A stretch of 37,572 bases of DNA from an uncultured bacterium (GTDB lineage: Bacteria; Verrucomicrobiota; Lentisphaeria; Victivallales; UBA1829): positions 1-37,572 of the forward strand of contig CASFTV010000036.1 in assembly GCA_949297765.1 (NCBI GenBank), written 5' to 3'. The first letter of the stretch is position 1. Every line of letters starts with the position of its first letter. Below the pieces are notes generated by a model. It searched no databases. It had not been told where the DNA came from and was given only the letters and a program-made list of their open reading frames with translations. The position numbers and the translations under genes were made by a program. Below, one piece after another: positions 12,901 through 17,605 of this stretch.

Positions 12901-12971
12901 TCTCGTTCCACCGGAGGCTTCTGGTCCCATGCGGACTGCTGGAATCTCCGGTGCTGTATCAAAACCAATAA
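9948..12971 (+). CDS. GH106-like glycoside hydrolase (alpha-L-rhamnosidase type)
   Basis: 1007 residues without signal peptide, so probably cytoplasmic. The N-terminus has the family signature: PFWSWNG near 20, GFGGFFMHSRLGLATEYLG around 45-64, and an LYDEDR-x-SSGSAGG segment near 85-95. FSDEP (D213-E214) and the ICETFAG/GW segment near 349 lie where acidic residues of the TIM-barrel catalytic site are expected. The C-terminal part, about 720-1000, is beta-rich and ends in a galactose-binding-like jelly roll (NPVFLEIP, INRIELTVFG). GH106 members known to me cleave alpha-L-rhamnosides; substrate here is inferred. It follows the AraC-type regulator by 23 bases and precedes a prepilin gene by 14, all one operon. 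GAGAGG lies 12 bases before the chosen ATG. Confidence 0.8.
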   Translation: MIQQILNHLNHPPMEFRGVPFWSWNGKLEETELRRQIRVMKEMGFGGFFMHSRLGLATEYLGEEWFRLVNACIDEAEKLGMSAWLYDEDRYSSGSAGGEVGREKQFRYRTLQCEVLKTPVFREEDIAWFAGIVDGHNLFSQRRLHHGETLRDGEMFLRFFLEYAPLRDWDNNSYAPDLMNPDAMRKFLCLTHERYAEHCGAKFGKSVPGIFSDEPHCSNWTEGMEEKFFRRYGEDLTERLPELFFLVDGKECSDLRWKLNNLRTELLCGAFAGQISQWCHAHGLAFTGHVFGEDSVLSQTEKVGSAMRFVEWMDLPGVDLLGERWMSFDAILQTASVAHQKGSGKTICETFAGCGWDFPLASQKAVADWQAALGITIFCQHLAFYTMEGWAKRDYPPSFLDQSPWHSVSRPMQDYFARLGALLAEGEPVRRILVVHPLESTWFWKPLNCYSPDEERAEICRLPRLRNALLSAKLAFDYGDEEMIARLASVEGKRVRLGKAFYSLMILPEMRTIRSSTLRLAEEFAKSGGTVLFLGPVPEYVDAIRSDRAEKGYAAFRKTNLQTVAVEADEVRSIAVRTVDGKSAESILCSEVRGEEHAQLFLCNIGMELPDHVEMSAPLAIDRTLVPGILEMEWEIPETWQIAEIDLFRGTVCPLESEWRAGRRVWRSEFGKLQTRMFLASKEFCKMSPRPPEIPRIGRRIPLNASPWKIRPDEPNVLVLDFPEISINGSAFREEYVLDADSRIRDAIGVPRRSSTMVQPWMQEKTIDSAKTAEVVLRYPFECFFIPSSLHLAVEHPEYYRIALNGKQISSLSDAGSWCDASLRKLPLPPEVLREKNILELRCTYHGRMCGLEALFLLGDFGVTNNVLTAPVRKLHPGDWCAQGFPNYSGNMIYELEFDWNEKSDNPVFLEIPCWRGTALGVAVNGAERRPILHPPDRIEIQDFLRPGINRIELTVFGHRRNSHGPFYTMPTHCNMASPPLFALLSFHRRLLVPCGLLESPVLYQNQ

Positions 12972-12985
12972 TCGGAGGAAAAGTG

Positions 12986-13741
12986 ATGAAACGAAGAGGA
13001 ATTCCATTTACGCTGATAGAGCTCCTTGTTGTAATTTCCATCCTTGCGATTCTTGCCGGTCTGCTTCTCCCGGCTTTGAACGGCGCAAGGGAAAAGGGAA
13101 AGACGATCTCGTGCTCCTCTCTGCTGAAAACCATTGCAACCGGAGCGATTCTCTATGCGGACTCTTGTGACGGATGGATCATGCAGTCCACAATGGAGAA
13201 TGAAGATGGTTTTTCCGGAACCCGCCGCCGCTGGTGTACCAATCTTCAGTTTCTGCAAAGTGCTGGAATTCAGTACAATACACTCCAGGGGTCCGTGCCG
13301 GCGGATAATTATCGGCATATGTGGAAACGTCAGTTTCTCTGTCCAAGCGCCGACCTGACCTGCATCGCCGCGGGAAGTCTCTACGGGACAGCAGAGCGAA
13401 GCTGGGGAATGCAGCGTCTCTGGCGCGATCTCCCGACCCAGCCAAGCAAGCAGACTTCTGTCCGGATCACTTCCGTTTCAAGACCTTCTGCAAAAGTTTT
13501 CTTCAATGAAATTACCGATGGAGGAGAATCGGTGAACGGGTCTCGCACTTTGCTGGCAAAGTATCTGGAATGGAAGGTGGAAAATTCTGTCGGCGGAACT
13601 CTTGCCTATCGTCACAACGGGGTTTTCAGCAATGTTGCGTTTTATGACGGTCATGTTCAGACCGGAAAAGAGGGGACTCTGATGGATCCGAATCCGTATA
13701 ACAACAACTTGGTCAATCGGATCTGGTATCTGGATTTATAA
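12986..13741 (+). CDS. Prepilin-like protein with H-x10-DG motif (first of three)
   Basis: 251 residues. After a short basic leader (MKRRGIP) comes the type IV pilin/type II secretion N-terminus [18 protein letters not shown], with Glu at +5 of the expected mature protein. The rest is a globular domain with several Cys and a C-terminal RHNG...FYDGHVQ segment in which His and Asp-Gly are ten residues apart, one more than the usual H-x9-DG. The residue before the cleavage Phe is Pro, not the usual Gly. A perfect GGAGG (12974-12978) precedes the ATG. It is the last gene of the AraC/GH106 operon. No other secretion genes are nearby, so it must use an apparatus encoded elsewhere. Function (minor pseudopilin, surface binding) is inference. 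Confidence 0.85.
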   Translation: MKRRGIPFTLIELLVVISILAILAGLLLPALNGAREKGKTISCSSLLKTIATGAILYADSCDGWIMQSTMENEDGFSGTRRRWCTNLQFLQSAGIQYNTLQGSVPADNYRHMWKRQFLCPSADLTCIAAGSLYGTAERSWGMQRLWRDLPTQPSKQTSVRITSVSRPSAKVFFNEITDGGESVNGSRTLLAKYLEWKVENSVGGTLAYRHNGVFSNVAFYDGHVQTGKEGTLMDPNPYNNNLVNRIWYLDL

Positions 13742-13791
13742 GTGCAGAGAATGGGATGATTGGGGGATTAATTGATTGATTGATTTTAATT

Positions 13792-13879
13792 TCGTGCTCC
13801 GCACGACCAGCGTCTCGCCGCTGGACCGCGACAAGGGCACCCTGCCCTTGACCCGGGAAAATGCAACAGCATTTTCCCG
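13792..13879. repeat. Cluster of four perfect back-to-back hairpins
   Basis: Four perfect inverted repeats in 88 bp: TCGTGC/GCACGA (13792-13806, loop TCC), CCAGCG/CGCTGG (13807-13824, loop 6), CAAGGGCA/TGCCCTTG (13832-13850, loop CCC) and CGGGAAAATGC/GCATTTTCCCG (13854-13879, loop AACA). Preceded by a TGAT tetranucleotide run at 13771-13784. It lies between the prepilin gene and the GH2-like gene. There is no T-run, so it is not a classic terminator. It resembles repetitive intergenic palindrome elements or a structured RNA leader. Confidence 0.75.
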
Positions 13880-13921
13880 TCCGGATTGTTGAAAATGGCC
13901 AAAAAGAAAGGAGATTGGGGA

Positions 13922-16900
13922 GTGGATAGGAAGAAAGTGGGGTGGCTGCTGCTTTGTGTGGCCGGGGTTCTGTCGTTCGCGGCGGAGAAGAAGCTGGAGA
14001 AGTTTGAGCCGGATCTTACAACGTCGGATATTTATCTCCCGCATCTGAAGCGTATTCCGCTCGGCGGGTGGTGGAAGCTGAAGCGTCTTGACACCGGAAG
14101 GAAGAATGATCCGGAGGATGAAGGTTTCAGGCGGAAGGTTTTCAAGCCGGAGTATTCCGATGTCTCCTGGGAACGGGATCTGGTTCCGAACAATCTGAAT
14201 ACGCCTTTTCTCAAGGAGAAACTGACGCACAGGGATCGTTCCCATGGCGGAGTGGTCTGGTATCGGAAGAGCTTTTCTTTGCCGGAGTACGGGAAAAAGG
14301 AACGGGTTGTGCTGTATCTGGAGGATGTGGTCGGAGCGTTTCGGGTGTATCTGAACGGGAAGGTTGTTCTGGAGGCTCCGGAGCGTCATCCGCTGAAGTA
14401 TGGAGCGTATCGCGGACCCGGGCTTCCGTTCGAAGTCGATGTGACAGAGCAGGCGAAAACCGGAGATAATGTGTTGGCGATTCGTCTGTTTCACAGCGGC
14501 AATCCGGTCTATCCGTGGGGCGGCGCGGTGCATGGGATCATGGGAAGGGTGTATCTGGACGTCAAGCCTGCCGCGTGGACCGACCGGATTCTTGTCACCA
14601 CGCTGCCCGATCTCAGGACCCTTGAAGTGGACTGTCTGCTTTCCGGATCGCGGAATCCGGCGGACTTGCGAGTCTGGAAAGGCGAAATTTTTGAATGGAA
14701 ATCAGGGAAAGCATGTGCGGAAATTGCGTTCGGGTCTCCGTATGACCGGGAGGGGATGCGCTTCGTTTCCGGAAAAACGACTCTGCATTCGCCGCGTCTC
14801 TGGTTCACGGAAGATCCGTTTCTTTACGGAGTGCGGATTCGGAACGCGGAAGGGGAAACGGTGGGAGTTCAGAGGTTCGGAGTGCGGACATTCGGCGTGA
14901 AAAATGGAAATTTCGTGTTGAATGGAGTTCCGGTGTTTCTCCGCGGACGCTGTTTCAATCAGACGCTTCTGAATCCCTCCAGACACGGATATGTCTACGC
15001 CCTTGCGATGAACGTCAACGGCTATGGACGAAAGTTCTTTGAAACGTTCCGGAATCTCAATCACAACTACCTGAGGCTGAACTCCTTTGCGCTGGGAAGA
15101 ACCATGTACGAGCATCTGGATGAACTGGGGATTCTTGTCAGCGACGAACTGTATTACAAGTCCATCCGTCTGGAACACTCCCGGAGAATCGACGAGATTG
15201 CGAAGCACTCCTACCGGAATGTCTGCGATGCGAAGGGCAATCTGCTTCCTGAATTCCGGACCTATCTGCGGGATCGGCTGTTTCTGACCTGGTCGCATCC
15301 GTCGCTCTGTCTGCACAGTTTCGGCAATGAGATCCGTGATTTCGGCTATGTCTCCAGCATGATGAACAACATCTATGATTTCTTCCGGAAATGGGAAAAG
15401 CAGAATCTGCCGCGGACCCCCTCCTCCGGACGCGTCTATCAGGAAGCCACCAATCTGGCCCGGATCCGCGGAGAGAAGTTCGATTATATCGACACTCATG
15501 CCTATGCGGGAACCGGGAATGAGTATCCCCTTCCCTATGTCGGCGTGATGTACCGTCACTTCATCCGGACCGCGGAAAATCTCTTCGGCAAAGACCGCTT
15601 TCCGATTGTCAACGGCGAGTGTGTCTACGATGGAAACCGTTACTGGAAAAGCTGGTACGACGGAATCTGGAACCGTTATGACGACCCGGAGCCGGACTGG
15701 AATAAATATCTGGCCTGTGTCAATGAGATGAAACAGAAAGATCCCGAACCCGCCAATCTCTCCCTCTACTGGATCCGCAACTGGGGTGCGAAGAACTACA
15801 AGTTCCGCCGTTCGGAGGGATTTGGTCTTTATACCGAGCGTGTTCTGGAATACGCCCGCGCGCTCTGGCCGAAACTGGACGGGTATGCCGCGCTTGCGGA
15901 TCCTTACATCACTCTGCCGGAAACGCTCGGCGATTTCTCGGACATCCGGATTGAATACCGGAAGGCGGCGGAAGGACTCCGGAAGATCTGTGCGCCGATG
16001 GTCGGCGGTCTCGAAACAGTTGCGCCGAACCAGTTCTCCGGGACGGATCTGCGCACAAACGCATGGGTGGTCAACAACCATGAATCGCCCCGGTCGAAGG
16101 TCCGGATGGAACTCCTGCTTGTCCGGGACGGGAAAACGGTTCGCCGGAAGGAGCTTTCCTTTGGAGAGATGAAGATCGGCGAAAAGAAAACGCTTCCTCT
16201 TTCGATGGATCTTCCTGCGGAGGAAGGATCCTTCCGTCTGACCTGGCGGGTTCTCTCCAGCGCGGGGGTGGAGAACGAACGCTCCGCGGAATTGAAACTG
16301 CGGAACGGGAAACATCTCTTTGCTCCGATCGAAACAAAGAAGAAAATTGCGCTGTTCGATGCATCCGGCGTATTCGGGAGTCTGAAACCCTACAGCACGC
16401 AGAAGATTCTGAAACAGCTCGGAATCCGCGCGGAGACGATCGAAGACTTCCGCGATCTTTCCCGGTACGATCTTCTGATTCTCGGGAACAACTCCGTCTC
16501 CGCAAGCGCCGTGCAGACGCAGGGGGACGCGATCCGGAAGTATGTGGAGGACGGCGGACGGCTCCTTGTGTTCGATCAGGAGTTCAGCGGACGGATGCCG
16601 TTCCTTTCCGAGCTCGAATATGCGATTGCGGGACCGGGACAGTTTTCGGAAGTGCTCCGCTTCCGTCACCCCGCCGTGAAGGGGATGGATCAGCACGACT
16701 TCTTTCTCTGGAACTCGAAGGATCAGTGTCTTTACCGCACTTATATTCTTCCGGTCTCCCGGGCGGCGGTCGCCGCGGGGGGAAACACGGCGGGATGGGG
16801 AGTCAGTCAGTTTGGAATGGTTCTGGCGCATTTGAAGCTCGGAAAGGGGGATGTGCTGTTTTCGCAGGCGGAAGTGACGGAGAATTTCCGGAAGGATCCG

Positions 16901-17605
16901 GCTGCGGCGCGTCTCTGCCGGAATCTGCTGGAGACAATGCTGGAGGATGCGACACGGAAAAATGCGTCGGAATTTCAAGGATTTCCACCGCTCCGGGTCC
17001 GGAAAATCGCGGATTCCGATGCCCGTCCGGTCTCTCTTGCGGAAAGCGCGAACATGGGATTTGCCGATCCGGTCGCAGGAGATGGAAAAGGAGGATGGAG
17101 CGATCAGGGGCCGGAGAACGATCTGCATCCGTTCCCGGTCGGAAGCCAGCGCTTTGCGGGGACGCTCTTCCGGATCGTCGATCCCGCGGGAAACAGCGGA
17201 CGTTCCTGTGTGGTGGTCGCAAAAAATCCGGATCTGAAATTCAAAGAGAAGAGTCGGCCGATCCGGCTCGGCTTCAAGGCGTCGCGTCTGATGTTTCTGC
17301 ACACGGCGGCGTGGGACGACAAAAATCCGGTCGGAGCCTATCGTGTTGAATACGAATCCGGAAACGTTCTTGAGATTCCTCTGGCGTTCGGGGAAAATAT
17401 CGGAGGATGGTGGAATCCCTCCTCGCAGAAGCTCGCGTCGGCCGACTGCGGATGGACCGTTCACGACGGGAAACGTCTGATCGGTGCATTTCTCTTCGAC
17501 TGGAAAAATCCGCATCCGCAGGATCCGATCCGTTCTGTGACGCTGTGCTCCTACGGGAAAACGGTCATCGGACTGCTCGGACTGACGGCCGAACAGATTC
17601 GATGA
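13922..17605 (+). CDS. Secreted GH2-like glycosidase with amidotransferase-like domain
   Basis: 1227 residues. GTG 13922 is chosen as start: AAAGGAG (13907-13913) is 8 bases upstream and the result is a clean signal peptide (MDRKK, hydrophobic core VGWLLLCVAGVLSF, cleavage near residue 20). An ATG at 13895 would place the ribosome site inside the gene and spoil the signal. Residues about 110-200 form the GH2 sugar-binding jelly roll, 200-310 the sandwich domain and 310-640 the TIM barrel. N469-E470 in HSFGNEI is the expected acid/base and E566 in VNGECVYDG the expected nucleophile. About 807-890 resembles the class I amidotransferase/ThuA-like trimerisation fold (IALFDASG, YDLLILGNN, YVEDGGRLLVFDQ). 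Likely an exported beta-glycosidase; substrate unknown. The next gene, a secreted unknown, follows after 105 bases. Confidence 0.82.
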   Translation: MDRKKVGWLLLCVAGVLSFAAEKKLEKFEPDLTTSDIYLPHLKRIPLGGWWKLKRLDTGRKNDPEDEGFRRKVFKPEYSDVSWERDLVPNNLNTPFLKEKLTHRDRSHGGVVWYRKSFSLPEYGKKERVVLYLEDVVGAFRVYLNGKVVLEAPERHPLKYGAYRGPGLPFEVDVTEQAKTGDNVLAIRLFHSGNPVYPWGGAVHGIMGRVYLDVKPAAWTDRILVTTLPDLRTLEVDCLLSGSRNPADLRVWKGEIFEWKSGKACAEIAFGSPYDREGMRFVSGKTTLHSPRLWFTEDPFLYGVRIRNAEGETVGVQRFGVRTFGVKNGNFVLNGVPVFLRGRCFNQTLLNPSRHGYVYALAMNVNGYGRKFFETFRNLNHNYLRLNSFALGRTMYEHLDELGILVSDELYYKSIRLEHSRRIDEIAKHSYRNVCDAKGNLLPEFRTYLRDRLFLTWSHPSLCLHSFGNEIRDFGYVSSMMNNIYDFFRKWEKQNLPRTPSSGRVYQEATNLARIRGEKFDYIDTHAYAGTGNEYPLPYVGVMYRHFIRTAENLFGKDRFPIVNGECVYDGNRYWKSWYDGIWNRYDDPEPDWNKYLACVNEMKQKDPEPANLSLYWIRNWGAKNYKFRRSEGFGLYTERVLEYARALWPKLDGYAALADPYITLPETLGDFSDIRIEYRKAAEGLRKICAPMVGGLETVAPNQFSGTDLRTNAWVVNNHESPRSKVRMELLLVRDGKTVRRKELSFGEMKIGEKKTLPLSMDLPAEEGSFRLTWRVLSSAGVENERSAELKLRNGKHLFAPIETKKKIALFDASGVFGSLKPYSTQKILKQLGIRAETIEDFRDLSRYDLLILGNNSVSASAVQTQGDAIRKYVEDGGRLLVFDQEFSGRMPFLSELEYAIAGPGQFSEVLRFRHPAVKGMDQHDFFLWNSKDQCLYRTYILPVSRAAVAAGGNTAGWGVSQFGMVLAHLKLGKGDVLFSQAEVTENFRKDPAAARLCRNLLETMLEDATRKNASEFQGFPPLRVRKIADSDARPVSLAESANMGFADPVAGDGKGGWSDQGPENDLHPFPVGSQRFAGTLFRIVDPAGNSGRSCVVVAKNPDLKFKEKSRPIRLGFKASRLMFLHTAAWDDKNPVGAYRVEYESGNVLEIPLAFGENIGGWWNPSSQKLASADCGWTVHDGKRLIGAFLFDWKNPHPQDPIRSVTLCSYGKTVIGLLGLTAEQIR

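Follow-up and report, generated by a model that had tools for sequence, protein, structure and literature searches.

What are four perfect hairpins doing in a row between a pilin-like gene and a GH2-like gene of an uncultured member of the Victivallales? They could belong to a leader that serves the downstream gene, or they could be one copy of something spread through the genome. The whole stretch of DNA analysed, which we call the window, is 37,572 nucleotides long. The first-pass annotation described stems of 6, 6, 8 and 11 bp packed into 88 bp. Direct reading of positions 13792-13879 bears this out, and all four stems are free of mismatches. On the forward strand, H1 (13792-13806) is TCGTGC-TCC-GCACGA, with a 6-bp stem and the loop TCC. 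It is followed by H2 (13807-13824; CCAGCG-TCTCGC-CGCTGG), which has the 6-bp stem CCAGCG/CGCTGG. Next on this strand are H3 (13832-13850; CAAGGGCA-CCC-TGCCCTTG, 8-bp stem) and H4 (13854-13879; CGGGAAAATGC-AACA-GCATTTTCCCG, 11-bp stem). The predicted fold of 13760-13900 gives exactly these four stems. Its energy is -54.7 kcal/mol, against -39.9 +/- 3.4 (z -4.3), and none of 200 dinucleotide shuffles was as stable.

Upstream, in the same direction, lies the pilin-like gene (12929-13741, forward strand), with a weak prepilin-type N-methylation motif that scores below the Pfam cut-off. The element begins 48 bp past its stop, at 13741, and a simple-repeat tract, (GATT)n, adjoins H1 on that side (13766-13789, forward strand). 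Downstream, the element ends 42 bp before the GH2-like gene (13922-17605, forward strand), a neighbour outside the element with a probable GTG start at 13922 and GGAG at 13910. Neither an intrinsic terminator nor a sigma-70 promoter was matched at the element, and the window copy has no U-tract 3' of H4.

In the 4.23-Mb assembly to which the window belongs, a BLAST-type search returned 40 matches, at 83-100% identity. Nearly all copies in this genome share the boundaries TTTCGTGC and TTTTTCCG. The boundary common to the 40 aligned copies places the complete four-hairpin unit at 13790-13879 (forward strand; core TTTCGTGC...TTTTCCCG). Its left edge is about 2 bases beyond H1, and in all copies the boundary runs TTTCGTGC...CCCG. 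We built a covariance model on an alignment of 39 copies, and the window copy matches it at C36:13788-13881 with 105.6 bits. By this model the window's genome (G000) has 48 copies. Each of three congeners has 28-37, and in a sister genus three species have 82, 105 and 140. Across the Victivallales the repeat is patchy: at E<=1e-5 it is matched in 24 of 120 genomes, with a very uneven spread. We scanned 84,980 species, each represented by one genome, for the exact pattern. Apart from one Stella record, the scan returned only metagenome-assembled genomes (MAGs) of Victivallales, Victivallaceae and Lentisphaeria, and unnamed metagenome bins. No Rfam family reached its gathering score for the element. 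Weak Rfam scores for proV and PhotoRC-I (E 0.04-0.6) were at chance level and were set aside. No such repeat was found in the literature for Lentisphaerae, Victivallis or Victivallales. The many copies in the genome and its relatives favour a repeat element. We conclude, with a probability of about three in four, that the four hairpins together form one copy of a non-coding dispersed repeat, specific to the Victivallales and REP/BIME-like in its working and placement.

Across families, H1 and H2 are the best-conserved part of the repeat, and H1 is close to invariant among G000 copies. Copies in the window's genome are single and isolated, whereas those in the sister genus (g3) form alternating arrays. 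There, a second subtype, B, has H2 CCAGCTTGCGCAGCTGG, H3 GCAGGACTG...AGTCCTGC and H4 AAAATTGC...GCAATTTT. Subtype B alternates with the window type (A) in the opposite orientation, at a spacing of about 100 bp (A+ B- A+ B-). Examples are L128:3900-7100 and L129:3950-4870 in genome G013, and L110-L126 in G025 and G005. The length of the array differs between two close species (L125 versus L129). An extra upstream hairpin, H0 (AGCGGTCTGAACCGCT), is part of the unit in this genus. No subtype B was found in the G000 or G002 stretches examined.

Where the copies sit was assessed with gene calls from a simple home-made codon-usage finder. On these calls, 40 of 41 copies in G000 lie outside coding sequences. 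For 92 cases in six genomes, the upstream gene, in the orientation of the element, was co-directional in 66 and not so in 26 (p 4e-5, in a test where paired copies are non-independent), and 47 of the 92 copies lie between convergent genes. The distance from stop codon to element in G000 is typically 30-130 bp, into which the window copy, at 48 bp, fits. The element probably acts as a 3'-UTR or DNA-hairpin element, and the closeness of the window copy to the start of the GH2-like gene is incidental. Note also that the largest gene family near G000 copies (at L013, L019, L024, L027 and others) is a paralogous, putative prepilin-type group, with 22 members in the stretches examined.

Some copy sites are common to different species (L025/L101, L012/L103 and L123/L127), and one gene has a copy after it in G000, G001 and G002 (L037, L181 and L107). 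The copy at L023 has a clean empty site in G002, where both flanking genes are kept at about 80% identity and the element is absent. The empty site is also without a tandem tract of about 65 bp, (TTGCAAGATGG)n, that is found on the H1 side of L023. This is the one clean empty site. Script-flagged 'EMPTY' loci were left out where they were partial copies or array-length differences (L097 versus L093, L129 versus L125), and L029 versus L112 was also unused.

We also considered the elements as rearrangement breakpoints. The junctions at three copies (L009, L017 and L032) are broken in each of the three congeners, which mostly agree with one another. This reading was dropped because the excess over intergenic control junctions was not significant (11 of 13 versus 11 of 17 broken, p 0.41). 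Within this genus (G000 versus G001-G003), gene order across transcription units is poorly kept, and close gene pairs do much better: 22 of 27 are kept, versus 6 of 17 for pairs with longer spacers. Separately, blocks of 22 kb and 15 kb have outward-pointing copies, partly near-identical, on either side in inverted order (G002:C84 3798-26352, L090/L091; G002:C15 3150-18068, L092; G001:C136, L093). The second of these arrangements is common to two species.

How the stems vary among copies bears on what maintains them. Over the 39 aligned copies, standard pairs make up 99.0% of the stem cells. Both-side changes occur at nine pairs, in 28 cells, and none of 500 shuffles reached the pairing or double-change value. 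Sliding the stem partners destroys the signal. Single-side changes that keep the pair (G-U) total about 6, and so are fewer than the double changes. An A-U/G-C double change is present at H3 in 11 of 39 copies, and six of the ten modelled pairs of H4 have a double compensatory change. Whole stems can also differ. At L023, H4 is entirely swapped for another stem. In another Victivallaceae MAG (L162, L173), H1 and H2 are kept, and H3 and H4 are other perfect stems, CCAGGG/CCCTGG and GAAAATCC/GGATTTTC. Note that the covariation is among paralogous copies, with nearly no G-U intermediates; hence, it is not specific evidence of an RNA switch.

Published work invokes template switching during replication to explain instantaneous compensatory changes (PMC8794818). 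The present stems resemble the outcome of such quasipalindrome correction: they are perfect, with double changes, few intermediates and the exchange of a whole H4 in L023. The published work deals with RNA genes generally, and with a mutational process, whereas the window-type repeat is an element family. For REPs, Di Nocera et al. cite GT pairs within the stems in support of an RNA role (PMC3733652); in the stems of the window-type repeat, GT pairing is scarce. We infer that the stems are corrected at the DNA level, and selection for DNA hairpins would yield the same pattern.

These data also bear on a reading in which the repeat is a functional RNA only, a stabiliser or terminator of transcript 3' ends, spread by recombination or gene conversion and not as a selfish mobile repeat. 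Such a role agrees with the sense bias in 3'-UTRs, with the strong conservation of pairing, and with those orthologous copies that are kept between species. However, compensation at the RNA level should leave more G-U pairs than the very few seen. Furthermore, the intrinsic terminator pattern is lacking, and sites are largely lineage-specific, with one of them empty in a relative. On balance, we regard a purely RNA-level role as unlikely.

The least expected feature is a polar tandem tract at the H1 end, combined with perfect, G-U-poor stems. Simple-repeat tracts adjoin H1 in many G000 copies and are not found on the H4 side. Sequence complexity in G000 is reduced over the 50 bp preceding H1 (0.70 for 4-mers, versus 0.83 in other 3' regions, p 7e-7), and this segment is C-poor and G-rich; the 50 bp after H4 are normal. 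Tandem scores of at least 10 were obtained for 13 of 39 upstream flanks and 3 of 39 downstream flanks. The upstream side is likewise low in complexity in G002 (p 2e-5), where the tract often repeats, in tandem, a unit formed by the element's own first 15 bases and a spacer, (ATTTCGTGCTTCGCATAAAAG)n. Arrays of this kind, with spacers of 5-6 bases, were seen directly before H1, and were absent on the other side, at L092 (3241-, 17977+), L093 (101-, 15238+), L094:7220- and L109:4643+. The sister genus is without H1-side tandem tracts and has the conserved hairpin H0 instead. In many G002 copies (L090, L091, L095, L099, L102 and L104-L107), a terminator-like hairpin common to them, AGAACCGCTTTTCAAAGCGGTTTTC, comes before the element together with a CTCGCATTTTT stretch, and the whole may be a larger composite unit.

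Slippage, when synthesis stalls at H1, may produce the simple-repeat tract beside it. A polymerase that stalled inside H1, and slipped back, would yield tracts of both the G000 and the G002 type. Taken further, template switching at hairpins during replication or repair could spread the repeat without a dedicated transposase, keeping the stems perfect and leaving a tandem or simple-repeat scar on the H1 side only. We think spread by this route alone rather doubtful.

Might a conventional transposase move the repeat instead? As a short, dispersed, non-coding unit with an empty site, it could be a MITE, the non-autonomous relative of a classical DDE insertion sequence, moved by that transposase. 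However, no terminal inverted repeats surround the unit in G000, where each arm pairs locally. Target-site duplications were sought at L023 and over all copies, and none was detected; flanking direct repeats equalled pairing-shuffled controls. Clustering of neighbouring genes gave no recognisable transposase-like family that recurs beside copies. A MITE is therefore improbable.

REPs are single palindromes of 20-40 bp with a GTAG (or CGTC) tetranucleotide at one end. BIMEs are mosaics in which REP units alternate in opposite orientation. Repeats of the REP/BIME kind, tagged with GTAG or CGTC, occur in E. coli, Pseudomonas, Stenotrophomonas and some PVC bacteria. REPINs are small and non-autonomous, and single-stranded hairpins are their presumed route of movement. 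Where REPs or REPINs are mobilised by RAYT, the genome has a RAYT gene, typically flanked by the repeats. A strict REP family, with RAYT (the TnpA-REP tyrosine transposase) as its mobiliser, would account for the REP-like placement and BIME-like alternation, and Y1_Tnp genes are common in the order Victivallales. However, the PF01797 profile, which covers RAYT and IS200 transposases, has no match in the copy-rich G001, G002 and G025 (drafts from a set that is 89-98% complete, so absence is not absolute). The only match in the window's own genome reads by eye as an ordinary IS200 TnpA, and its contig is without an element match. This lone IS200-type gene encodes 157 aa and is at L042:191-664 (G000:C38), away from every element copy. 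There is no association with element copy number for RAYT/IS200 genes, or for reverse transcriptase (RVT_1 is absent from the copy-rich draft genomes G013 and G025). Near the element ends, GTAG was found in 1 of 39 copies, and CGTC in 2 of 39 at the 5' end and 3 of 39 at the 3' end. By its size and missing tag, the repeat falls outside the REPs in the strict sense. A strict REP family moved by RAYT is also very unlikely. The first-pass annotation had suggested a mobile, repetitive intergenic palindrome, processed by a transposase elsewhere. The first part is supported, by about 48 dispersed copies here, many further ones in relatives, and one orthologous site that is empty. The second is not shown: genes of the Y1/RAYT type and for reverse transcriptase do not track copies.

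REPs lie 3' of genes, and between ORFs that are unidirectional or convergent (PMC3733652). The present repeat is like REP/BIME sequences in this placement, and in forming lineage-specific families of high-copy intergenic palindromes. As with BIMEs, pairs in opposite orientation occur in some genomes carrying it. Unlike a REP, every full copy has four hairpins per unit (five with H0 in genus g3) over about 90 bp or more. The stems of the window type are perfect, with almost no G-T pairs, and no RAYT tracks the copies. In the window's genome the unit also differs from a REPIN, being no pair of inverted REPs around a spacer and having no associated RAYT. The present repeat is like the CGTC REPs that lack a dedicated transposase (PMC3733652) in being palindromic and abundant, and in that no mobilising enzyme was identified for it. 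It differs from them in having no CGTC at its ends, in its multi-hairpin unit, and in its phylum.

Lastly, the other proposal of the first-pass annotation, a leader RNA controlling the secreted enzyme, here a structured, riboswitch-like 5' leader of the GH2-like gene, could draw on the 42-bp distance to the start, the strong fold and the covarying stems, but it is already largely refuted and extremely unlikely: the approximately 48 copies have unrelated genes as neighbours and mostly follow a gene of the same direction, with no conserved position upstream of homologous genes, GH2-like ones included; copies between convergent genes, which are frequent, lead none; and Rfam has no family at gathering score.

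Returning to the dispersed repeat, we propose that the element would spread in trans, as a small and non-autonomous unit, via a single-stranded or hairpin intermediate. Its perfect stems may be kept mainly by DNA template-switch correction between arms, by DNA-hairpin selection, or by both. By analogy with REPs, the chain of hairpins, when transcribed as the 3' end of the mRNA upstream, would protect that mRNA from 3' exonucleases or attenuate read-through. With this repeat, the REP-like elements gain a family that is multi-hairpin, untagged and RAYT-less, and none was found described in this phylum. One-sided tandem tracts and G-U-poor double changes make it a natural test of template switching versus RNA selection in the maintenance of DNA hairpins. 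With dozens of near-alike copies per genome, and orthologous, empty and duplicated sites among congeners, the question is directly testable.
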